Notes under the pieces: generated by a model
Databases searched by the model: none
What the model saw: the letters and a program-made list of their open reading frames with translations, nothing else
Told to the model about the DNA's origin: nothing
Origin: Colwellia sp. 12G3
Lineage (GTDB): Bacteria > Pseudomonadota > Gammaproteobacteria > Enterobacterales > Alteromonadaceae
Assembly: GCF_002836775.1 (NCBI RefSeq)
Contig: NZ_PJAQ01000068.1
Coordinates: forward strand, 310,001 to 374,000
Length of the DNA: 64,000 nucleotides
Reading direction: 5' to 3'
Shown here: piece by piece, positions 51,272 to 62,052 of the stretch
Numbering within the stretch: the first letter of the stretch is position 1
Layout of the letters: the number at the start of each line of letters is the position of its first letter
Translations under genes and position numbers: made by a program

Positions 51272-54118
51272 CTAATCAATAAGGCGTTTTTGCCAAATAT
51301 CAGTAATAGCACCTTGCCCTGTTACCTTTTGCCTATCGATTAATTGTCCTGCATTTTGCATTGCCGCTTGATGCCCTAGCGCTCTTAACTTTTGATACAT
51401 ATTACTTAACTGCTGTTGTTCAATTTCTTCCAATAAGCCCAGTTTCAATAAACATTTAAATATTCCTAAATTATCACAAAAATTCATTAACTCATGACAT
51501 TGATGGGCATGTGCCAGTACTAAAAACTGAGCAAGAAATTCAATATCGACTAAACCGCCCTTTCCCTGTTTAATATCAAAATGTGATTCACTTGATGTAC
51601 CTAAATGGCTACGCATTTTTTCTCGCATAGTGATAATGTCGCTTTTAAGTTCGTTGAACTCTCTTGGTTGAGATAAGACATCTTGACGAATAGTAATGAA
51701 CTGTTGGTGAAGTTCATCATTCCCATAAATCATCCGAGCTCTAACTAACGCTTGATGTTCCCACGTCCAAGCATCTTCACGTTGATATTGAGCAAAAGTA
51801 TTTAAATGTACTACCAACAGTCCTGAGTTGCCTGACGGCCTTAAACGCATATCTAACTCATATAAAATCCCACTATTCATACGGGTGTTGAAAATATGCA
51901 TAATACGTTGTGCCAACTTCATGTAAAACTGGCTTGCTGGTAGTGATTTACTGCCGGTTGTCACTTCATCAGGCTGACTATGATGAACAAACACTAAATC
52001 TAAGTCTGAGCTATAACCTAACTCTACCCCGCCAGTTTTACCGTAAGCAATAACACCAAATCCTTTTTCCTTTACGCCATCTAAACACGATGTAGGCACA
52101 CCAAAGCGTTCGCTAACTTGTTGCCAAGCAAGGTTTATCACTTCAGATAAAATGGCTTCAGCTAAGGACGTTAAGTGTTCACTGATTTTTGCTACCGGTA
52201 ATACATCAGCAATTTCTGCCGCCGCAATACGTAATTGTTGTGATTGTTTAAACTGACGAAGAGACTCCATTTGTGCTTCAAGGTCCTCCTCTGGAATTCT
52301 TAACATGCGCTCACGCAACTCTACCGCATAAGATGACAGTTTCGGTGGGTTATGCAGTAACTTGGGATCAATAAGTTCATCAAGTAAAATAGGATATTTC
52401 GCAATATAATCTGTCACCCAACTACTGGCTTGGCATAAATGAATAAGTTGCTTTAACGCGCCTTCATTTTCAAAAAGTAGCTCTAGGTAGGCGGTACGGG
52501 TCACTATTTTACTAAAGACTTGCAATACTCTAGCTAAAACTTGTTCTGCCATTTCATTTTTCTGTAATCGACATAAAAGTAGCGGGATTAATTTATCTAA
52601 AACCAGTCGACCTCTATTACCTAAACTGCGTTTACCTGTGTCCTCTCTAAAATCATGCAGTATTTGCCAAACCTTATCACTTTGCCAAGCAATAGCTTCT
52701 TGATCTAACCAAGCGATAGATTCTTCATCACTCCATCGGCTATGCCACAGTGTTACCCAGTGTTCGTCTGCCGCTTGATGATTTGGACTATCAAGTCCAA
52801 TGAGTAAATCAAATTCTTGGTGAACGCCAGTCATATGCTTGGCTAAAACAACTAAAAAATCTGCCCAGGTATCAATGGCAAGCACCGCTAATAATCGCTG
52901 CTGATCAAGTTCATTATCGGGTAATGTTTGCGTTTGCTTGTCGGCTAATGCCTGAATAATATTTTCTACACGTCTTAAGAAACGGTAAGCGTTTTCTAAT
53001 ACGGCTTTATTCGCTTCATTAATTTCACCCGATGCAACCAGTTTAGGCAAAACAGTTAATAAATTGCGTTGCTGAAGCTCTTTTACCCGACCACCTCGAA
53101 TCAATTGAAAAACTTGTACAATAAACTCTATTTCGCGAATACCGCCAGCACCAAGTTTTATATTATTGATTAATTGCTTGCGACGTACTTCTTGAGCAAT
53201 CATCATTTTCATGCGGCGCAAACTATCTATGACACTAAAGTCAATGTAACGTCGATAAACAAAAGGCCTGAGCATACTTGATAGCTGTTCATGGTATTTA
53301 GATTCACCAATAACCCTAGCTTTCAACATGGCGTAACGCTCCCAATCACGCCCTTGCTCTTGGTAATAATCTTCCATAGCATTAAAAGTCAGCACCAGTG
53401 GACCACTGTCACCAAAAGGGCGTAAGCGCATATCTACTCGATAAGCAAAGCCATCGCAAGTTATTTGATGTAGTGAAGCAATGAGCTTTTGTGCTAAACG
53501 AGTAAAGAACTGTTGATTATCCATGCTGCGACGACAGCCTTGAGTTTCTCCACTTTCGGGGTAAGTAAAAATCAAATCAATATCGGAGGAAAAATTTAAT
53601 TCTTTACCACCGAGTTTCCCCATGCCATAAACCAGTAAAACTTGCTGCTCTCCCTGCTTATTGGATGGAGTACCCCACTTTTGCTGACAAAAATTAGTGA
53701 GCCATTCTAAGCTGGCTAAAATAAGCTCATCTGCTAACGATGATAATCGCGCTAACGAGTTGTCTAAGCTAATATTAAACACTAAATCATCAAGCGCTAT
53801 TTTAACCATTTGTTGTAAGCGAAAGTGTCTAACAATTCGATGTAGTTGCGCTTCATCAATGCAGTCGGTTAATTGTTCAAGCAACAGGCTTTTATAGTCT
53901 GGTAACACTTCTTGGGTTGGTTTTTTAAAAAGCTCAATAACAAGCTCAGGAGCTTGTAATGCGCTGTTAAGAATAAAGTCACTTAACGTAATGGCTTGCT
54001 TAAAAGCGTTAAGTTGCACTTCTGATAACACATCACATGCAGTGCTATGTTGCTCGATAAAGTGTTGCCAATTCGTTATTTGTTGTTGTTGTAAAAGTGG
54101 GGAAAAGGATAATGTCAC
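51272..54118 (-). CDS. glnE: Bifunctional glutamine synthetase adenylyltransferase/deadenylase
   Basis: 948 residues, usual GlnE length. Two nucleotidyltransferase domains: N-terminal deadenylylase with YGMGKLGGKELNFSSDIDLI, and C-terminal adenylylase with YGKTGGVELGYSSDLDLVF; each is followed by its helical domain (for example KLGAGGIREIEFIVQ and KQGKGGLVDIEFLAQF). It controls glutamine synthetase by adding or removing AMP in response to PII and glutamine. The start is GTG at 54118-54116, with TAAGGA upstream. It is divergent from the envelope cluster beginning at 54249. Confidence 0.96.
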   Translation of the reverse strand: MTLSFSPLLQQQQITNWQHFIEQHSTACDVLSEVQLNAFKQAITLSDFILNSALQAPELVIELFKKPTQEVLPDYKSLLLEQLTDCIDEAQLHRIVRHFRLQQMVKIALDDLVFNISLDNSLARLSSLADELILASLEWLTNFCQQKWGTPSNKQGEQQVLLVYGMGKLGGKELNFSSDIDLIFTYPESGETQGCRRSMDNQQFFTRLAQKLIASLHQITCDGFAYRVDMRLRPFGDSGPLVLTFNAMEDYYQEQGRDWERYAMLKARVIGESKYHEQLSSMLRPFVYRRYIDFSVIDSLRRMKMMIAQEVRRKQLINNIKLGAGGIREIEFIVQVFQLIRGGRVKELQQRNLLTVLPKLVASGEINEANKAVLENAYRFLRRVENIIQALADKQTQTLPDNELDQQRLLAVLAIDTWADFLVVLAKHMTGVHQEFDLLIGLDSPNHQAADEHWVTLWHSRWSDEESIAWLDQEAIAWQSDKVWQILHDFREDTGKRSLGNRGRLVLDKLIPLLLCRLQKNEMAEQVLARVLQVFSKIVTRTAYLELLFENEGALKQLIHLCQASSWVTDYIAKYPILLDELIDPKLLHNPPKLSSYAVELRERMLRIPEEDLEAQMESLRQFKQSQQLRIAAAEIADVLPVAKISEHLTSLAEAILSEVINLAWQQVSERFGVPTSCLDGVKEKGFGVIAYGKTGGVELGYSSDLDLVFVHHSQPDEVTTGSKSLPASQFYMKLAQRIMHIFNTRMNSGILYELDMRLRPSGNSGLLVVHLNTFAQYQREDAWTWEHQALVRARMIYGNDELHQQFITIRQDVLSQPREFNELKSDIITMREKMRSHLGTSSESHFDIKQGKGGLVDIEFLAQFLVLAHAHQCHELMNFCDNLGIFKCLLKLGLLEEIEQQQLSNMYQKLRALGHQAAMQNAGQLIDRQKVTGQGAITDIWQKRLID

Positions 54119-54152
54119 AAGAATTCCTTATATTATGCAAGCGTTGCCTATA

Positions 54153-54208
54153 GACATAATATGTCGTTAATGGTATTAATTGACAATTGTCTATGCTTAG
54201 TCGCTAAT
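54153..54208 (+). promoter_or_regulatory. GACATAATATGTC palindrome and promoter for the lipoprotein-DUF350 genes
   Basis: The 13-bp perfect palindrome GACATAATATGTC is at 54153-54165. Downstream lie TTGACA (54180-54185) and, after a 17-bp spacer, GCTAAT (54203-54208), a plausible sigma-70 promoter for the gene starting near 54249. The -35 overlaps a second small palindrome GACAATTGTC (54182-54191). The palindrome is centred about 24 bp upstream of the -35, an activator-like position. Two more copies of the same 13-mer lie at 58092-58104 and 58128-58140. Confidence 0.6.
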
Positions 54209-54248: not shown

Positions 54249-55238
54249 ATGATGGCAGAAATGCACTTACTAAAAACACCTTTTTTATTACTCTTGATCA
54301 TAATTACAACGCTTAGCTTAGCTGGCTGTGGTGATCCCGTGAAAGAGCAAATCGAACAGCAACTACCTATTACTGAAAAAAGAGTGACTCAGTTAGGTGA
54401 TGCATTAAACAATGGTCAAGTACGCAATGCCAGCTTAATCAACCAATACGCTGATAAAGTAATGGTTAATAAAGCTAATTTAGCACCATTGATCAATGAA
54501 TTTCGTAAAGATGCTTCCACTGATGGCCCTATGTATAAAGCGCTGTTAGATAGAATTAATACCGCTAAGACTCAGCCACAAATGTTTGAATCTTCGCAGG
54601 CGCTTTATAATGAATTACTTAATATTTACCAAGCGGCAGACCCCGTCCTATATTCTGACGCATTAAGTGATCCTCTTAATGTATTGGCGGATATGTCTGA
54701 TGGTCAACTGCCTCGTATTAATTCCTTATCAAAATCACAAAGTCAGCAAGCTAATAATGCTCAAGACTTTGGTACTGGTGAGCAGTTAATTGGTAATCCC
54801 AGTTATGGTAACTGGCAAACCGGTAGTAATGGTATGTCTTTTTGGGCTTGGTATGGCATGTACTCAATGATGGGTGACATGTTTGGTCGCCGTACCTATT
54901 ATAATGATTGGGGCAGACAACGTAATTATAGCTATTACAACGATTATGGCAGAACACGTTACAGCTCCCCTGGTCAATTAAAGAATCAAACCTCACTTGA
55001 TACCCGCACTAAAAAATCATTTAGTAGTCGCGGACAAAAGTTTACTAGCCCTTATAGTAAAAACAGAACGGGATCATCAAGCTTATCAGGCCAAAGTAAA
55101 ACAGCCCAAACGAGTTCTAATCGCTTTCGCACCAATAGCATAAAGAAAAGCAGTTATGCCACTCCGTCTAAAAGTAAGAATTCTAGTTTTAGAAACTCAA
55201 ACACCAACACATCACGCGGCTTTAGACGCGGGAAGTAA
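54249..55238 (+). CDS. Lipoprotein with Ser/Arg/Lys-rich basic tail (YgiB/YjfM-like position)
   Basis: 329 residues. Lipobox LSLAGC (C27), followed by Gly-Asp, a +2/+3 pair that may favour inner-membrane retention only weakly. A helical region (about 30-150) precedes an aromatic Gly/Met-rich segment (FWAWYGMYSMMGDMFGRR). A long tail of Ser, Arg, Lys, Asn and Tyr follows (about 215-329, ending SRGFRRGK), very basic and probably disordered. The plan (lipobox, hydrophobic FW patch, Ser/Arg tail ending SRG) recalls E. coli YgiB/YjfM (DUF1190), but I see no certain homology. GAGGAG abuts the first ATG, so the ATG at 54252 may be used. First gene of the cluster with DUF350. Confidence 0.72.
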   Translation: MMAEMHLLKTPFLLLLIIITTLSLAGCGDPVKEQIEQQLPITEKRVTQLGDALNNGQVRNASLINQYADKVMVNKANLAPLINEFRKDASTDGPMYKALLDRINTAKTQPQMFESSQALYNELLNIYQAADPVLYSDALSDPLNVLADMSDGQLPRINSLSKSQSQQANNAQDFGTGEQLIGNPSYGNWQTGSNGMSFWAWYGMYSMMGDMFGRRTYYNDWGRQRNYSYYNDYGRTRYSSPGQLKNQTSLDTRTKKSFSSRGQKFTSPYSKNRTGSSSLSGQSKTAQTSSNRFRTNSIKKSSYATPSKSKNSSFRNSNTNTSRGFRRGK

Positions 55239-55280
55239 CGAATAAGTCGACAATAAAAAAAGAATAGGAACAACAAAATT

Positions 55281-56183
55281 ATGAATACATTCATCGAACT
55301 CGTTGGTGTTAATCAAGACTTACTCGTTTATTTGGCTATTGATGTTTCCATAGCTATCTTGCTATTAGGTGCTATGCGATTCCTTTCAGGAATTACTGCT
55401 AAGGTAAACAGTACAGAAGAGTTGGCCAAAGAAGATAACTTCGCTTTTGGCATCAGTGTTGCGGGTAGCGTATTAGCACTCGGTATTGTACTTACTGGCG
55501 CGATTTCGGGAGAAGCCGCAAGTAGTTACTCAATGGAAGCTATTGGCATGCTGGCATACGGCGGGTATGGTTTATTACTTATAAAAATTGGTCGTATTAT
55601 TCAAGATAAAGTAGCGCTACAGCACTTAGATAAAAATGCGCTAATTATAGAAAAAAATCTTACCATTGGCATTATTGATGCCGCGGGCGCTATTGCCACT
55701 GCGATAATTATTCGTGCAGTCTTACTTTGGGTAGACGGACTAGATTTTAGTACATTTATCGCTATCACAAGTGGCTTTATTGTAGCTCAAACCATGTTAG
55801 TCATCGTCACTCGACTTCGTGAGCAGCAATATGCGAAAAACAATCAAGAAGATTGCCTGCAAGAAGCCTTCAGCAATGGGCAGCTTGCTTTAGCCATTAG
55901 ATATAGTGGTCAAGTAATTAGTACGGCTTTAGCGGTGACTGCTGCCAGTCATTTCCTAACCTATAGTCCTGAAACCTTAGTTGTTAACTTACTTGGCTGG
56001 TTAGTGTTTGGTATTGTCATGACGTTGATCGTAGGTCTACTAACAGCCTTAGCTAAGCGTATTGTGCTTTGGGGGATCAATTTAGTTGAAGAAGTTGATC
56101 AACAACATAATATAGGTGTTGCTAGTATTGAAATGGCAACCAGTATTGCTATTGCCTTAATATTAACGGCGCTTATGGCCTAA
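55281..56183 (+). CDS. Duplicated DUF350 membrane protein (YjfL-like)
   Basis: 300 residues with about eight membrane helices in two similar halves (about 1-140 and 145-300). Both halves carry the DUF350 pattern: DNFAFGISVAGSVLALGIVLTG in the first and NGQLALAIRYSGQVISTAL in the second. The E. coli YjfL unit is a single DUF350 of ~130 residues, so this is the tandem form. DUF350 proteins are regularly coded beside PspA-like proteins, DUF2491 and polyamine enzymes. Function unproven; a channel-like or stress-sensing membrane role has only been suggested. It lies 42 bp after the lipoprotein gene. Confidence 0.85.
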   Translation: MNTFIELVGVNQDLLVYLAIDVSIAILLLGAMRFLSGITAKVNSTEELAKEDNFAFGISVAGSVLALGIVLTGAISGEAASSYSMEAIGMLAYGGYGLLLIKIGRIIQDKVALQHLDKNALIIEKNLTIGIIDAAGAIATAIIIRAVLLWVDGLDFSTFIAITSGFIVAQTMLVIVTRLREQQYAKNNQEDCLQEAFSNGQLALAIRYSGQVISTALAVTAASHFLTYSPETLVVNLLGWLVFGIVMTLIVGLLTALAKRIVLWGINLVEEVDQQHNIGVASIEMATSIAIALILTALMA

Positions 56184-56207
56184 TAACATCAGTTAGTGAA
56201 TAAGTTC

Positions 56208-56247
56208 ACCGCTATTGTGCTTTTAAGCGCTGGCGGTGTGTTTTATT
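56208..56247 (+). terminator. Nested stem-loop after the DUF350 gene
   Basis: CACCGCTA (56208-56215) pairs with TGGCGGTG (56232-56239) with one G-T pair, enclosing GCTT-TT-AAGC, then TGTTTTATT. It is a partial terminator or an attenuator between DUF350 and the spermidine synthase-like gene. Confidence 0.5.
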
Positions 56248-56315
56248 AAAGACTCTTTAAATTCCATATTTTATCTCCCTATCCCACAAATACTAATTAT
56301 TAACGATTAACTTAT

Positions 56316-58022
56316 ATGCCACAAAACACTTTACCCCAAGAAAAGTCTCACCTACTCGACGATATCTTACTTATTTTAACTATGGCAGTTTTAGCTGGTT
56401 GTGGACTGATTTATGAGTATTTGCTCTCTCACTACGCTGGCCGAGTGTTAGGCGTAATGGAAAGTACTATTTATACCATGATCGGGTTAATGATAGTATC
56501 TATGGGACTTGGCGCTTTTGCTGCCCGAAAAGTACGCTGTGCCTTTAATGGTTTTGTCTGGCTAGAACTTATTATTGCCTTAGTAGGTAGCTCAGCCATT
56601 TTGATCATTGGCGGTTTAATTGCTATTACACAAATATTCCCACAGCTTATTGCTGATATGTTATCACTTCCGCCAGATATGAAACCACAAGGTGGACTGT
56701 TCAAACAGTTAAGTTGGTTAGCCTTTAAAAGCCCGTATTTCTTTGGTGTAATTCTCGGATTTTTTATCGGCATGGAAATACCATTAATTGCTCGCATTCG
56801 AGAGAGTATTCATAAACAGCATCTTGCCAATAATTTAGGCACCATTTATGGCGCAGATTATGTCGGTGCCGGTGTCGGCGCTGCTATTTGGGTCATTTTT
56901 TTACTGAGTATCGATATTAGTAAAGCCGCAGCAATAACCGCAAGTTTAAATCTTATTGCCGGTGCGTTTTTTATTCTTCGTTATTGGCAGCATCTTAATT
57001 GGCGTAAAACCTTTGTTGCTTTACATTGTGGTTTAGCCTTAATCATTGTCTTAATGTTTAGCTATGGTAATCAGTGGCTTAATCAGATGAACAGCCTACT
57101 CTATCTTGATAAAGTCGTTCATACTGATAAAACTCGCTATCAACAGCTAACTTTTACTGAGCGTCATATGGGGCTTGACCAGAACAATATAATCAATTTT
57201 TATTTAAATGGTCGTTTACAGTTTTCGTCCATCGATGAACATATTTATCATGATTATCTTGTAGCGCCAGTTATGGCCGGTTCAGCACGACATGAAAACA
57301 TTCTTATTATTGGTGGTGGTGACGGTTTAGCCTTACGGGATGTTTTAAAATACAACCCTAAAAACGTGACCTTAATTGACTTAGATAGTGAGTTAATAGA
57401 TATATTTAAACAGCCAAAAAACCTGGTAAATCCTCGTTTAGCGAGTCAAATATTACAATTGAATAAACAAAGTTTACAGGATGATCGTGTCACGATTATT
57501 CCCGCAGATGCTTTCATTGCCATTAATCAATTATTAAAAAACCGACAAGTATTCGACGCCATTATTGTCGATTTACCCGATCCAAGCCACCCTGATCTTA
57601 ATAAACTTTATTCGGTAAATTTTTACGCTCGACTTAAGCTATTACTGTCAGGTGATGGTTTAATCGCGATTCAATCAACTAGCCCGTATCATGCAAAAGA
57701 CTCATTTATTGCTATTGGCAATACTTTAGCAGCCGCTAAGTTTGCCCATGTAGAGCAATACCACGATAACGTACCAAGCTTTGGCGAATGGGGTTGGACC
57801 ATTGCCTCTAAGAGTGGCGCGAGCCCTTTAACCAGATTAAACAAATTAACTAAGCTCCCAGTAGCGCATCAATGGTTAAATTTGGCTATATTAAAGGCGG
57901 CCTTTATTTTCCCAAATGATTTTTATCAAAACAAAGAAAATATTGGTATTAATATATTAGGTAGCCATACCATTTATCAATTACATCAAAAGGCTTGGCA
58001 AGACCAGCAAAACTTAAATTAA
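56316..58022 (+). CDS. Membrane-anchored spermidine synthase-like aminopropyltransferase
   Basis: 568 residues. About seven membrane helices (15-260) with the short signature CGLIYEYLLSHYAGRVLG precede a cytoplasmic methyltransferase-fold domain. This has ILIIGGGDGLALRDVLKY (cofactor loop), VTLIDLDSEL (acidic residue contacting decarboxylated SAM) and AIIVDLPDPSHPDLNKLYS (catalytic Asp). These are spermidine synthase (SpeE) motifs. The membrane domain is the form found in many bacteria beside DUF350 and PspA genes. The reaction is probably aminopropyl transfer to putrescine or another amine, though the true acceptor may be different. It is separated from DUF350 by a 132-bp gap with a hairpin. 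Confidence 0.88.
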   Translation: MPQNTLPQEKSHLLDDILLILTMAVLAGCGLIYEYLLSHYAGRVLGVMESTIYTMIGLMIVSMGLGAFAARKVRCAFNGFVWLELIIALVGSSAILIIGGLIAITQIFPQLIADMLSLPPDMKPQGGLFKQLSWLAFKSPYFFGVILGFFIGMEIPLIARIRESIHKQHLANNLGTIYGADYVGAGVGAAIWVIFLLSIDISKAAAITASLNLIAGAFFILRYWQHLNWRKTFVALHCGLALIIVLMFSYGNQWLNQMNSLLYLDKVVHTDKTRYQQLTFTERHMGLDQNNIINFYLNGRLQFSSIDEHIYHDYLVAPVMAGSARHENILIIGGGDGLALRDVLKYNPKNVTLIDLDSELIDIFKQPKNLVNPRLASQILQLNKQSLQDDRVTIIPADAFIAINQLLKNRQVFDAIIVDLPDPSHPDLNKLYSVNFYARLKLLLSGDGLIAIQSTSPYHAKDSFIAIGNTLAAAKFAHVEQYHDNVPSFGEWGWTIASKSGASPLTRLNKLTKLPVAHQWLNLAILKAAFIFPNDFYQNKENIGINILGSHTIYQLHQKAWQDQQNLN

Positions 58023-58085
58023 GCCTTAATACCCATATTATTATTTAGCGTAATCTTAATAATAATTACAAATAGTTTATAAAAA

Positions 58086-58140
58086 CACCTTGACATAATA
58101 TGTCAAGGTGGTAAATTTAACTCAGACGACATAATATGTC
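58086..58140. promoter_or_regulatory. Paired GACATAATATGTC palindromes
   Basis: Two further copies of the 13-mer, at 58092-58104 and 58128-58140, with centres 36 bp apart. The first is extended to a 25-bp perfect palindrome (58086-58110, arms CACCTTGACATA). It could act as a DNA operator or as a hairpin; no T-run follows on the plus strand. The sites lie between the spermidine synthase-like gene and the DUF2170-PspA operon and match the site upstream of the cluster. Confidence 0.65.
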
Positions 58141-58143
58141 ATC

Positions 58144-58413
58144 TTATACCAAGTTGATTGAGTTCTTTCCCACTCAGCGAAAATTAAAAGGTTTATAGGC
58201 AAGGCATTGATTGAAGATAATGGTTATTCCCTTGTCAAAATCAATAACGCAGTATCTAAACCTTTTAAATTCGCCCTTTGGGAGCTTGCTCGATAAGCAC
58301 TAACATCGTTAGATTTATTGAGTTTAGAATGACTAAGCCTAAACAAATCTTCCTTGTTATTGAATATCGAGCACAGCTCTGAGTTAGGAAGAAATTTAAT
58401 CAAATTGGTATAA
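58144..58413. repeat. 270-bp inverted-repeat element (MITE-like)
   Basis: Terminal inverted repeats TTATACCAAGTTGATT (58144-58159) and, reverse-complemented, TTATACCAATTTGATT (from 58398-58413): 15 of 16 match. Inside, TTAAAAGGTTTA and TAAACCTTTTAA form another inverted pair. It has no open frame that looks real. Its ends resemble those of the element at 47765-47928. It lies directly between the paired palindromes and the DUF2170 gene. Confidence 0.68.
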
Positions 58414-58414
58414 T
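58406..58414 (+). promoter_or_regulatory. Extended -10 promoter formed by the repeat element's end
   Basis: The right terminal repeat reads TTGGTATAAT, containing TGG-TATAAT, a consensus extended -10 box (TGnTATAAT). Its expected start site is about 25 bp before the DUF2170 ATG (58446), and AAGGAAGGATAGGA follows as ribosome site. No good -35 is seen, as is usual for extended -10 promoters. Confidence 0.5.
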
Positions 58415-58445
58415 TTTCACTTAAGAAAGGAAGGATAGGAAATAC

Positions 58446-58859
58446 ATGAATATTCATACTATAGCCGATCACTTAAACAGCTTGGCAGATAATTCAGACA
58501 CAGGAATGAGCTTTGATTGCCAACCAATATCTGGCGAAGTTGACGTCCTACAAATTAGTATTTTAGGCCGTGAAGAGTTACCCGTTTTTGTTTCAGTAAC
58601 TGATGATCAAATTATTTGTATCAGTTACTTATGGGGAACAGAAGAAGTTAAGCCCGAATGTATTAATGCAATGCATGAAAGCATGTTAGAAATGAATATC
58701 CCTATGCCCTTATCATCATTTTCAAAAATTGGTGATAAATATGTAGTCTTTGGCGCTTTATCTATTAATTCAAGTTTTTCTGATGTTGAACATGAATTAG
58801 CGGTATTAAGTAACAATGCCATTGAAGTGATTGATGATATGAGTGATTACTTACTTTAG
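58446..58859 (+). CDS. DUF2170 protein (YjfI-like)
   Basis: 137 residues, soluble alpha/beta protein. The pattern MSFDCQPISGEVDVLQISI, then REELPVFVSVTDDQIICISYL, then EVKPECINAMHESMLEMNIPMPLSSF is that of E. coli YjfI (DUF2170). The family is found almost only next to PspA/IM30-type genes. No function is established. It is the first gene of an operon with the PspA, DUF2491 and putative DNA-binding genes; a strong ribosome site precedes the ATG. Confidence 0.85.
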   Translation: MNIHTIADHLNSLADNSDTGMSFDCQPISGEVDVLQISILGREELPVFVSVTDDQIICISYLWGTEEVKPECINAMHESMLEMNIPMPLSSFSKIGDKYVVFGALSINSSFSDVEHELAVLSNNAIEVIDDMSDYLL

Positions 58860-58908
58860 TTAAAAGCTAATTAAGAGTCATTTTGATTACCCTAGTTAGG
58901 AGTTAATA

Positions 58909-59598
58909 ATGAGTATATTTAAAAAAATTATGACCGCAATTCGCGGCGGCGCATCAGAAGCTGGTGAAGCAATCATTGATGCTAATGCTACCCGTATTTT
59001 TGAACAAGAAATTCGTGATGCTGAAAATCACCTTACCAAAGCAAAACGTGACTTAACAGGCGTTATGGCTGAACAAATGGCAGCAAAACGTGAGATTGAC
59101 CGCTTAACACGTGAAATTACAGAGCATGAAGGTTATGTTGCTCAAGCACTTGAAAAGGGTGATGAAACCTTAGCACTTGCTGTCGCAGAAAAAATTGCTA
59201 ACTTAGAAAGTACTTTAGCTGATCAACAACAAGCCCACGATAGTTTCAGTGGTAGCGCTGATCGTTTAAAAGACTTAGTTAAGAAAAGTGAACGCCAAGT
59301 TGCTGAACATAAACGTCAACTTTCTATGGTTAAAACTACTGAAAGTGTGCAAAAAGCGACATCAGCAATTACCGATAACTTTTCATCAAGTAACTCTAAG
59401 CTATTAAGTGCGAAAGATTCATTAGAACGCATTAAAGCGAAGCAACAGAAATTTGATGATAAAATGAAAGCTGCTGAACTACTTGATTCTGAAGACTCAG
59501 ATACTTCATTACAAGCGCAATTAAAAGCCGCTGGTATTGGTTCACAAGATAACAGTGCAAACTCTGTGTTAGAGCGTTTAAAAGCGAAGCAGAAGTAG
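58909..59598 (+). CDS. PspA/IM30-family protein (YjfJ-like)
   Basis: 229 residues, almost entirely helical coiled coil with the family start MSIFKKIMTAIRGGASEAGE and FEQEIRDAENHLTKAKRDL. PspA/Vipp1 proteins are ESCRT-III relatives that coat and repair stressed membranes. The first amphipathic helix needed for lipid binding is present. This is the yjfJ branch rather than the pspABC operon: no PspB/PspC/PspF is nearby, and DUF2170 and DUF2491 are. The C-terminal ~45 residues (after KAKQQKFDDKMKAAELL) end NSVLERLKAKQK, echoing the internal LERIKAKQQ. Confidence 0.92.
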   Translation: MSIFKKIMTAIRGGASEAGEAIIDANATRIFEQEIRDAENHLTKAKRDLTGVMAEQMAAKREIDRLTREITEHEGYVAQALEKGDETLALAVAEKIANLESTLADQQQAHDSFSGSADRLKDLVKKSERQVAEHKRQLSMVKTTESVQKATSAITDNFSSSNSKLLSAKDSLERIKAKQQKFDDKMKAAELLDSEDSDTSLQAQLKAAGIGSQDNSANSVLERLKAKQK

Positions 59599-59608
59599 CA
59601 TTCATTGC

Positions 59609-59640
59609 AAGCCAGCTAAAATTTAGCTGGCTTTGTATTT
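59609..59640 (+). terminator. Perfect palindromic hairpin between pspA-like and DUF2491 genes
   Basis: Arms AAGCCAGCTAAA / TTTAGCTGGCTT with a single central A, then TGTATTTTG, 11 bp after the PspA-like stop. It may cause partial termination so that the PspA-like protein is made in excess over downstream products. Confidence 0.6.
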
Positions 59641-59688
59641 TGTACAAATGCGATATGAAAAAATGCCCACCTTCTATCAGGTAGTCCT

Positions 59689-60330
59689 ATGAGTTTTTTT
59701 AAAAAAATATTTAATAAATCATCTAACGCGCCAAGAAAATTAACACAAGTTAATCAATTATTGGTTGGTGATATTATTGTTTTAACCGATAGCTTTGCCT
59801 TACCGGAATCATTACGTGGCCAAGAATTTCAAGTAAGTACCGTTAATAGTTATGAGTTTGAACATAAGGTGCAAACTGAATGGGCCTTGATGGGTACTAA
59901 CGCCCTAGAGATATTTTTAACACTCGAAGTAGATGATATTACCGAGCTAAAACTATCATTAAAAATTCAACATGAAGATGTCGAAACCTTATTTGATTTA
60001 GAGCGTTTTTCCGAAGTCTTTGATGAGCCAGGAGAAGCATTTTTAGAGAGAAAAGCTGATTCTACCATCACCAGTATGTGGAGTAGCGGGCAATATCAAC
60101 AAAGCGTATTTGCTAAAGTTGGATTTTTTCACCGCAAAGATCATCGTAGTGAAAATCTATCGGCATATGAAGGAAAAGATAGCGGCGAACAATTTGAACT
60201 CTACAGTCTTTATAATGAAGACCAAAGTAAAGGCGTTGATGTTGAAGTATGGCAAGATGGCGACACTGAAGTTTGCTTAACTTTATTTAGGCCACTTAGT
60301 GATATAATTGATATGTACCCAGCAAGTTAA
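59689..60330 (+). CDS. DUF2491 protein (YjfK-like)
   Basis: 213 residues, soluble, mostly beta. Start MSFFKKIFNKSSNAPRKL, then LLVGDIIVLTDSFALPESLRG and TEWALMGTNALEIFLTLEVDD are typical of the E. coli YjfK family (DUF2491). The N-terminal amphipathic MSFFKKIF resembles that of the PspA-like neighbour (MSIFKKIM) and might also touch the membrane. The role is unknown, but co-occurrence with PspA, DUF350 and DUF2170 is strong across bacteria. Confidence 0.85.
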   Translation: MSFFKKIFNKSSNAPRKLTQVNQLLVGDIIVLTDSFALPESLRGQEFQVSTVNSYEFEHKVQTEWALMGTNALEIFLTLEVDDITELKLSLKIQHEDVETLFDLERFSEVFDEPGEAFLERKADSTITSMWSSGQYQQSVFAKVGFFHRKDHRSENLSAYEGKDSGEQFELYSLYNEDQSKGVDVEVWQDGDTEVCLTLFRPLSDIIDMYPAS

Positions 60331-60342
60331 CCGGAAAGTAAT

Positions 60343-60681
60343 ATGGCGCGAAAAATCCCCGAGAAATGGCAATCATCTGTTAAAGCAATAAAAGCAGTGC
60401 AAGTCGCTTTTGATATGGACGAAAAGATCCAACTATCTATTCGTAAGCAGGCGCTTGATGCTGGTTTAAGTCCATCAGATCAAATTCGTGATATTTTAGG
60501 GTTACCAATAAATAAAAGACCTAAGCGGCCGCGTCTAACCGTGAGCTTAGCGCCTAGTGACTACCAACTTCTTGCTGAAAAATATCAACTACAAGCCGAA
60601 GATCAACTAGAAATTAAGAAGAAGTTGATGGACGATTTGATTACTCATATAAATTTGGTCAATAAAGACAAAAATGAATAG
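60343..60681 (+). CDS. Small protein with two ribbon-helix-helix-like motifs
   Basis: 112 residues, basic. Two segments each show a short beta strand followed by helices: VAFDMDEKIQLSIRKQALDA (then GLSPSDQIRDILGLP), and RLTVSLAPSDYQLLAEKYQL (then QAEDQLEIKKKLMDDLITHI). The spacing fits a ribbon-helix-helix fold repeated in one chain, separated by the basic linker NKRPKRPR. Such a tandem would act like a pseudo-dimer binding a palindrome. I do not recognise the exact family. It begins 12 bp after the DUF2491 gene and is the last gene of the operon, so it may regulate the cluster; the GACATAATATGTC sites are candidate targets. DNA binding is inference. Confidence 0.62.
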   Translation: MARKIPEKWQSSVKAIKAVQVAFDMDEKIQLSIRKQALDAGLSPSDQIRDILGLPINKRPKRPRLTVSLAPSDYQLLAEKYQLQAEDQLEIKKKLMDDLITHINLVNKDKNE

Positions 60682-60798: not shown

Positions 60799-61056
60799 AT
60801 GTTAAAAAAAATTACCGCGGTAACACTAGCATTAGCACTAACAGCTTGTGCCAATACAGATGCACTTGATGAAAGTATTACTTCATTAACGACTAAAGTT
60901 GATGCTTTGTCAGTTCAAGTTGCTGATTTAGATGCACAACAAAAATCTATTGCCGCTGATGCACAGGCCGCAAAAGAGTTAGCTGAGCAAGCAGCAAATG
61001 ATGCTAAAGCAGCTAACGAACGTATTGATAATGTTGTCGCTTCATATAAAAAATAA
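60799..61056 (+). CDS. lpp: Braun-type (Lpp-like) murein lipoprotein
   Basis: 85 residues. Lipobox LALTAC with C17. The mature part of 69 residues is an Ala/Asp-rich heptad coiled coil (trimeric alanine-zipper type) ending DAKAANERIDNVVASYKK, closely matching the end of E. coli Lpp (ANQRLDNMATKYRK). The C-terminal Lys is the residue linked to peptidoglycan in Lpp. It is longer than E. coli Lpp (58 mature residues), which would set a wider periplasm if it tethers the outer membrane. A strong terminator follows, fitting a highly expressed gene. It is convergent with an L,D-transpeptidase gene. Confidence 0.85.
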   Translation: MLKKITAVTLALALTACANTDALDESITSLTTKVDALSVQVADLDAQQKSIAADAQAAKELAEQAANDAKAANERIDNVVASYKK

Positions 61057-61140: not shown

Positions 61141-62052
61141 TTATTTAGCTAGCTCAATGACTAAACCATTTGGCTTTTCTATAATTGGTAGAAGTTTCTG
61201 CCAGTACTCACGTTTAGTACCAACAAATCGTTGCATCGCTTTAGTTAAAATAACATTACCTTTAGTCGCTTCATGATCAGTTAACGGTTGATGTATCTCT
61301 ATTAGCTGTTTATCACCATTTTCATATGACATTTTCACAGGCTGATTCACCACTCTGACTTTAGTGTTTACAGGTACGTTATCAAAAAGCCACTTAATAT
61401 CATTATCATACATTCTAATGCAACCTGAGCTAGCACGCATACCAATACCAAAACGTTTATTTGAACCATGAATTAAGTACTCACTTGTTCCAAGACGTAA
61501 TGCATATTTACCAAACGGGTTATTTGGTCCTGCTGGGATTTCTTTAGCGAGATATTTACCATGCTCAGCAAAGTGACGATCTTGCATTTCTTTTGTTGGT
61601 CGCCAGATAGGGTCTTTTCTCTTTTCCCCGATGATAGTACTCGTTAGCGGTGTAGATAACCCTTGTCGACCAATACCCACAGGGAAAACATGTACTTTAT
61701 TTTCTACTGGTGAAAAATAATAGAGTCGTAATTCAGGTAAATTAATGACTATTCCCTTACGTGTCATAAAGGGTAATAACATTTGAGTAGGGATAATTAC
61801 CTCAGAGTCAATCTGAAGTAAAAAAGGATCATGTTGGGGGTTAGCTGCCAGTAAAGCTAAAAAACCAACGTCATATTGTTCTGCCAATTGCTGAAAATAA
61901 TCACCTTTCACTACTTTGTGTATCTTAGGCGTACCAATTAGGCGAGTTTTCACACTACCGAGTTCATAAACAGTTGCCATTAAAGGTTTAACAAATATCA
62001 ATAAGATAAATAGGCATAGCGAAATAGAGCATCGATTTTTATTTTGTTTCAT
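61141..62052 (-). CDS. L,D-transpeptidase of the ErfK/YbiS type
   Basis: 303 residues: signal peptide (about 1-26), LysM-like domain (about 42-88; VVKGDYFQQLAEQYDVGFLA), then a YkuD catalytic domain with HGSNKRFGIGMRASSGCIRM, in which C211 is the nucleophile and the upstream His is its base. Enzymes of this build (ErfK, YbiS, YcfS, YnhG) attach Lpp to the meso-diaminopimelate of peptidoglycan or make 3-3 crosslinks. The adjacent convergent Lpp-like gene suggests the first activity. It starts 5 bp after the CYTH-CHAD gene and is probably co-transcribed with it. Confidence 0.92.
   Translation of the reverse strand: MKQNKNRCSISLCLFILLIFVKPLMATVYELGSVKTRLIGTPKIHKVVKGDYFQQLAEQYDVGFLALLAANPQHDPFLLQIDSEVIIPTQMLLPFMTRKGIVINLPELRLYYFSPVENKVHVFPVGIGRQGLSTPLTSTIIGEKRKDPIWRPTKEMQDRHFAEHGKYLAKEIPAGPNNPFGKYALRLGTSEYLIHGSNKRFGIGMRASSGCIRMYDNDIKWLFDNVPVNTKVRVVNQPVKMSYENGDKQLIEIHQPLTDHEATKGNVILTKAMQRFVGTKREYWQKLLPIIEKPNGLVIELAK

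Follow-up and report, generated by a model that had tools for sequence, protein, structure and literature searches.

The question raised by this locus is what holds seven adjacent plus-strand genes of Colwellia sp. 12G3 together, and what controls them. The genes lie in a 64,000-nucleotide stretch, hereafter the window (GCF_002836775.1, contig NZ_PJAQ01000068.1, positions 310,001 to 374,000), and form two groups: TU1, coding for a lipoprotein (LipoA), a tandem DUF350 membrane protein and a membrane-anchored spermidine-synthase-like enzyme (MSpeE), and TU2, coding for a DUF2170 protein (given a CesT/Tir-type chaperone fold in passages of PMC11237479 and PMC10948618), a PspA/IM30 protein, a DUF4178-like protein and a ribbon-helix-helix (RHH)-like protein. 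Neither the gene set nor the polyamine-PspA link is new, both appearing in the passages of PMC11237479 on such operons; the shared operator, the targets of the candidate repressor and regulon control of the cluster were not found in the literature searched. The answer favored here is that the small DNA-binding protein of the cluster probably switches an envelope-protection program: with a probability of roughly 0.65, the RHH-like protein represses, via GACATANTATGTC, an envelope-stress regulon headed by this PspA-CesT/Tir-polyamine operon.

A single copy of the interrupted palindrome GACATAATATGTC precedes the lipoprotein gene and two copies precede DUF2170 (Table 1); these three are its only exact copies in the window, all of them before the two gene groups. 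At TU1, the GACA of the operator ends a -35-like TAGACA (54151-54156), with a -10-like TATTAA at 54174-54179 and a spacer of 17; at TU2, the distal operator overlaps a -35-like TTGACA (58090-58095), with a -10-like TAAATT at 58112-58117 and a spacer of 16, while the proximal operator lies 3' of the -10-like box, in the presumed early transcribed region. Such a layout, read from the letters, would suit steric repression. Across the 5.06-Mb genome there are four exact copies of GACATANTATGTC, the fourth approximately 100 bp before a 310-aa SPFH/Band-7 gene. One-mismatch sites, of which the same genome has 12, were never counted toward the regulon; among the 11 that were read (one was not fetched), four lie inside open reading frames (ORFs) of at least 300 aa. 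Between the proximal operator and DUF2170 the window has a gap of 305 bp; at 30 of 31 genus loci this gap measures 30-70 bp, and at the remaining one 206 bp. Most of the gap in the window is taken up by a 270-bp element that ends in imperfect inverted repeats. This element has the looks of a small mobile element, since related stretches are found at other loci of the same genome and of the genus, and it may alter the leader of the DUF2170 promoter.

The arrangement recurs in relatives. Among the best 80 of 341 relatives' loci, mostly from Colwellia and Thalassotalea, two exact sites precede DUF2170 in every one, with a spacing of 35-37 in 79 and of 39 in one, and in 74 the 700 bp preceding the lipoprotein gene contain an exact site. 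In the 31 loci fetched from the genus, the TU2 pair is exact throughout (36 bp apart in 30, 37 in one); of the TU1 sites, 28 are exact and two carry a single mismatch, while at one locus none was found. The 80-locus set consists partly of the same records as the genus genomes, so that the two sets are not independent; for this reason, the probability given above was lowered from 0.66. When the window and 30 genus loci are compared as 31 blocks, with sites located with up to three mismatches, column conservation reaches 0.98 in the operator, 0.85 in the spacer and 0.63 in the 40 bases upstream. The 37 genus genomes together contain 172 exact sites versus three for a backwards control.

What might read these sites? 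The product of the last cluster gene is predicted, with the help of a structure model, to be a tandem RHH (beta-alpha-alpha) protein; a Foldseek search with this model gave no significant match, and the model was thereafter compared by VIA-align. Profile searches of the cluster ORFs found no other predicted DNA-binding protein. The distribution of the gene follows that of the operator. In a sample of 61 relatives, made up of the 37 genus genomes and 24 order genomes, each of the latter from a different family, the RHH gene is present in 35/37 of the former, and sites occur in eight of the nine RHH-bearing order genomes versus one of the 15 lacking it (Fisher p 1e-4). A class sample of 232 Gammaproteobacteria repeats the pattern: an RHH-like gene was found in 10 genomes, and exact sites in 7/10 of these versus 8/222 of the rest (p 1e-7), or 5/8 versus 8/222 (p = 1e-5) once the window's own genome and its family member are set aside. 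All seven RHH-bearing genomes with sites have them directly upstream of DUF2170, whereas the eight RHH-lacking ones have one site each; the backwards control matches 15 of the 222 RHH-lacking genomes, so these eight can be taken as background.

The same survey bears on whether the two gene groups belong together, as the initial annotation had supposed. A full-length membrane synthase occurs in 10/232 class genomes, each of which also has DUF2170 (10/10), and 10 of the 11 synthase copies precede DUF2170 on its own strand, at a distance of no more than approximately 1 kb; the RHH gene is present in nine of these 10 genomes. Conversely, eight class genomes have DUF2170 without a full-length synthase, partial matches of 205-249 bits (G061, G099, G120, G186, G258) not being counted as the full-length enzyme. 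The outcome named at the outset as one that would speak against a joint system, halves that rarely co-occur, was not seen, and with the same operator before both groups, in the window as in relatives, the notion of two unrelated neighbors is rejected.

Beyond the cluster, 98 operator sites were collected from 29 of the 37 genus genomes, nine order genomes and three further class genomes; G012, G014 and G031 (genus) and G037 (order) contribute none, and the non-cluster sites of G003, G007, G011, G018, G021, G022, G027, G035 and of the eight RHH-lacking class genomes were left out, while one site of the RHH-lacking G054, three of G023 (no RHH match) and two before the pspA of G058 are included. 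These sites lie overwhelmingly between genes: 95/98 fall outside ORFs of at least 150 aa, as against 499/1600 random positions in the same loci (an ORF was counted only if its first possible start lay at least 45 nt before the site, with a similar rule for the random positions). These sites show a modest -10-like signal where the spacing would match, with 19/81 at each of two offsets, 2-16 further on. The nearest downstream ORFs were grouped by similarity, and a single representative of each group was compared with Pfam; divergent neighbors were counted on both sides, so that some of the listed genes may not be targets. SPFH/Band-7 genes lie downstream of sites in 14 genomes (by eye, 12 prohibitin-like and two stomatin-like), NhaA is the nearest downstream ORF in nine, and HtpX follows the operator in six, each from a different family. 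YqiJ-like genes lie 3' of sites in eight plus three genomes, the next ORF being SPFH/flotillin-like by eye in the seven checked, and NfeD follows in three, with a stomatin-like next ORF by eye in the two checked; YidC-like and beta-carbonic anhydrase genes follow in two genomes each. A secreted-looking protein of 100-119 aa, with the operator approximately 160-210 bp upstream in 12 genomes (L118, L119, L124, L137, L215 and others), is a candidate for an unstudied member of the regulon; Pfam gave no match for its representative or for that of the eight-genome YqiJ-like group. As a separate observation, a gene that by eye codes for an Lrp/AsnC-type regulator stands divergent across the operator from NhaA at L125, L136 and L138, and from an antiporter-like gene at L140; this group is present in eight genus genomes.

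From these patterns we infer that the RHH protein binds the operator, that it represses and does not activate, and that membrane or ion/pH stress releases the genes. A tandem RHH repressor would bind GACATANTATGTC, with one operator covering the -35 box of the lipoprotein-DUF350-MSpeE promoter and two, 36 bp apart, bracketing the core promoter of DUF2170-PspA-DUF4178-RHH; as the latter unit includes the RHH gene, the repressor would control itself. The same operator would place SPFH/Band-7 scaffolds, YqiJ/NfeD-flotillin pairs, HtpX and NhaA under it in various relatives. Upon release, with the stress perhaps sensed via DUF2170-PspA, PspA and the SPFH scaffolds would hold the inner membrane, the membrane protease HtpX would clear damaged membrane proteins, the Na+/H+ antiporter NhaA would restore ion balance, and the accessory membrane enzyme would aminopropylate, at the membrane, a polyamine or some other amine.

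The initial annotation had given this last step a far larger part, seeing in the locus one system devoted to membrane repair, with polyamine (aminopropyl) chemistry directed at the membrane, a peptide or a protein as its core. This view now appears doubtful. MSpeE has a spermidine synthase domain behind a predicted N-terminal multi-transmembrane (TM) domain (NF002956, 603.9 bits, cut-off 472); its structure model has nine predicted helices before residue 262, at low confidence there (predicted local distance difference test, pLDDT, of 35-50 across much of the membrane part). It keeps GGGDG (333-337), D398, D419, D422 and Y311/H312, and GGGDG, DE..YH, D398 and DLPDP align with solved spermidine/thermospermine synthases and are invariant in 15/15 sequences, five of them from genomes without a detectable S-adenosylmethionine (AdoMet) decarboxylase. 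The Asp of GGGDG and the Asp pair of DxxDP go with decarboxylated AdoMet and amine acceptors, and by such residues MSpeE is a putative aminopropyltransferase. The polyamine core further draws on two distant Gammaproteobacteria, G236 and G221, where the membrane synthase gene is immediately preceded by a short one for AdoMet decarboxylase, which is good evidence that MSpeE uses decarboxylated AdoMet in these genomes; on the decarboxylases found in 35 of 43 enzyme-bearing genomes and in the window's own genome, which has one away from the cluster; and on the polyamine link proposed in the passages of PMC11237479 on such operons. Against it, the synthase is missing at 6/80 loci (Thalassotalea/Thalassomonas L303-L307 and L309; the loci only, the genomes not being searched for another copy), where a gap of 142-214 bp takes its place and DUF350, DUF2170, PspA and the tandem operators are kept, two of them (L303, L304) being without DUF4178 as well. 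Likewise, eight of the 43 enzyme-bearing genomes (G009, G011, G015, G025, G033, G036, G041, G051) have no AdoMet decarboxylase by PF02675 and alignment A3, the eukaryotic-type PF01536 not being searched. The synthase as an obligatory part of the locus is rejected, and because of these eight genomes and six loci, MSpeE, and polyamine chemistry with it, looks accessory to the cluster. Close relatives without the enzyme at the locus caution against a polyamine model built on the enzyme alone.

The same eight genomes, three of them single-contig (G011, G036, G041), would also suit a different chemistry, namely that MSpeE uses AdoMet itself, transferring a methyl or 3-amino-3-carboxypropyl group to a membrane or secreted substrate, and is no aminopropyltransferase in vivo. 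A precedent might be the seven-TM methyltransferase of lytic polysaccharide monooxygenase (LPMO), the fold of which we take to be related to that of MSpeE. It acts on the N-terminal histidine of LPMO, according to part of PMC10349129. We nevertheless consider this unlikely, and less likely than the polyamine core, given the invariance of the aspartates in question, also in the sequences from decarboxylase-less genomes, and the operonic decarboxylase in G236 and G221.

Another possibility is that the RHH protein acts as an activator, from sites that serve as activating sequences. Overlap with the -35 region, a place that some activators may use, is indeed seen for the TU1 and distal TU2 sites, and RHH activators exist; but the -35-like hexamer comes from the operator itself, and at TU2 the proximal copy is found 3' of the -10-like box, the usual geometry of steric repression, which makes activation improbable. 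Two sets of genomes run counter to the co-occurrence of operator and RHH gene: G023 and G035 carry sites without an RHH match, and G046, G125, G241 and G266 have the RHH gene but no exact site. The former set, together with G058, whose RHH gene is on another contig than the tandem operators in front of pspA, would fit a real operator read by some other co-traveling DNA-binding protein, with the RHH-like protein doing something else, but the co-occurrence of operator and RHH gene in both the order-level and class-level samples, the status of the RHH protein as the only predicted DNA-binding protein found in the cluster, and the presence of operators before DUF2170-PspA-DUF4178-RHH at L067 and L069, two loci without the synthase, make this the least probable of the alternatives.

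Table 1. Coordinates of the operators, the seven cluster genes and associated features (window positions unless a locus is named).
Feature	Position	Strand	Basis or remark
Operator TU1, GACATAATATGTC	54153..54165	.	letters read; window and genome motif search
LipoA, lipoprotein with basic Ser/Arg/Lys-rich C-terminal tail	54249..55238	+	ORF call, relatives' alignment
Tandem DUF350 membrane protein (YjfL-like)	55281..56183	+	PF03994, two stretches, 1.8e-31
MSpeE, membrane-anchored spermidine-synthase-like enzyme	56316..58022	+	profile matches, conserved residues
Operator TU2 distal, GACATAATATGTC	58092..58104	.	letters read; genus alignment
Operator TU2 proximal	58128..58140	.	36 bp (start to start) downstream of distal site
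270-bp element, imperfect 27-nt inverted repeats at ends	58144-58413	.	between proximal operator and DUF2170
DUF2170 (YjfI/BacA-like)	58446..58859	+	profile match
PspA/IM30 protein	58909..59598	+	profile match; adjoins DUF2170
DUF4178-like protein (gene 6)	59689..60330	+	family-level profile matches
Predicted tandem RHH DNA-binding protein	60343..60681	+	predicted fold; proposed repressor
Short AdoMet decarboxylase genes beside synthase	L181 3462-3878; L178 2258-2752		profile match

ORF and profile checks place all seven genes where the initial annotation had them (54249..60681), and its account of their content stands except for gene 6, which it had labeled DUF2491. That label is rejected, as a profile search of the family favors DUF4178: 8/15 members match at E<=0.01, with 1.3e-5 as the best value, whereas the member in the window reaches only 0.079 and so falls below the cut-off. 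For LipoA, the alignment of some relatives begins at an ATG at 54261, and no match named Ctha_1186 was found in the two profile libraries searched. The two DUF350 stretches lie within 300 aa, which would fit the 8TM DUF350 described for the second group of operons in PMC11237479.

Around the cluster, an Lpp/OprI-type alanine-zipper lipoprotein (60799-61056) directly follows and an L,D-transpeptidase (YkuD; 61141-62052) is encoded nearby on the other strand, both without an exact operator of their own; in four class genomes, a gene that is potassium-channel-like by eye lies 3' of the RHH gene. The upstream neighbor (51272-54118, opposite strand) is glnE-like by eye and starts approximately 35 bp from the TU1 operator. 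Similar genes of 944-969 aa flank the DUF2170 group in loci L067, L069, L072 and L073, suggesting that the place of the cluster is old and that this gene might share its control. ARAGORN found no tRNA in the window.

An operator shared by both gene groups makes the link between them directly testable, and the operator-bearing promoter offers a simple reporter for finding the stress that these genes answer. Moreover, three DUF families and an unstudied lipoprotein gain a defined regulon and a candidate regulator.

Among known systems, the classical Psp system (PspF-pspABC) shares the PspA/IM30 domain; membership in it is rejected, the window's PspA scoring 15 bits against TIGR02977 (cut-off 242.95) and the cluster ORFs, together with the next three genes, giving no match to PspB, PspC or PspF. 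The bac operon of Pseudomonas aeruginosa (bacA-F), as treated in part of PMC10948618, likewise joins a DUF2170 protein of solved structure, BacA, to a PspA protein, BacB, but has six genes, no spermidine synthase and sigma-54-type promoter sites, whereas the operators here lie on -35/-10-like promoters; against the BacA model, the window's DUF2170 scores 55.8 bits (cut-off 300). The initial annotation had also pointed to E. coli yjfIJKLM as a related set with an ATP-grasp enzyme, in agreement with the third group of operons in the relevant passages of PMC11237479. This yjfC-type operon shares the DUF2170-PspA dyad, DUF350, a lipoprotein and a polyamine-type enzyme, but has an ATP-grasp ligase, DUF2491, DUF1190 and a 4TM DUF350; the glutathionylspermidine-synthetase-like ATP-grasp ligase, DUF2491 and DUF1190 have no match among the cluster ORFs of the window. 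In the part of PMC12492005 concerned, yjfIJKL is strongly up in heat-evolved E. coli after a promoter deletion and is termed a heat-tolerance operon, its authors inferring a role in membrane stability. The closest counterpart is the second group of PMC11237479, a CesT/Tir-PspA operon with a 7TM spermidine-synthase-like protein (AAN56744, AAN56746, AAN56747), to which its paragraph assigns DUF2170, PspA, 7TM-SpdS, 8TM DUF350, a lipoprotein, DUF4178 and sometimes a final RHH gene; that paragraph names no adjacent AdoMet decarboxylase gene and no enzyme loss, and 'operator' and 'palindrom' have 0 occurrences in the main text. According to part of PMC8581546, the linkage of a phage-shock protein to the membrane depends on an SPFH protein.

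Such joint control may be compared with what prevails in another lineage. In Bacillus subtilis, the sigma-W regulon subjects genes of the PspA, SPFH/flotillin and NfeD types to a common envelope-stress control, through an extracytoplasmic function (ECF) sigma factor rather than an RHH protein with a palindrome; alkaline shock is reportedly among its inducers, and we know of no synthase, HtpX or NhaA set in it. The odds appear slightly better than even that the RHH protein, from the last gene of this unstudied operon, acts as master repressor in what would be a Gram-negative equivalent of this regulon, with GACATANTATGTC tying together PspA, several separate SPFH/flotillin systems, HtpX, NhaA and an accessory aminopropyltransferase of the membrane. 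If so, the concerted action of stand-alone flotillin-YqiJ operons and a PspA from elsewhere in the genome would have an explanation.

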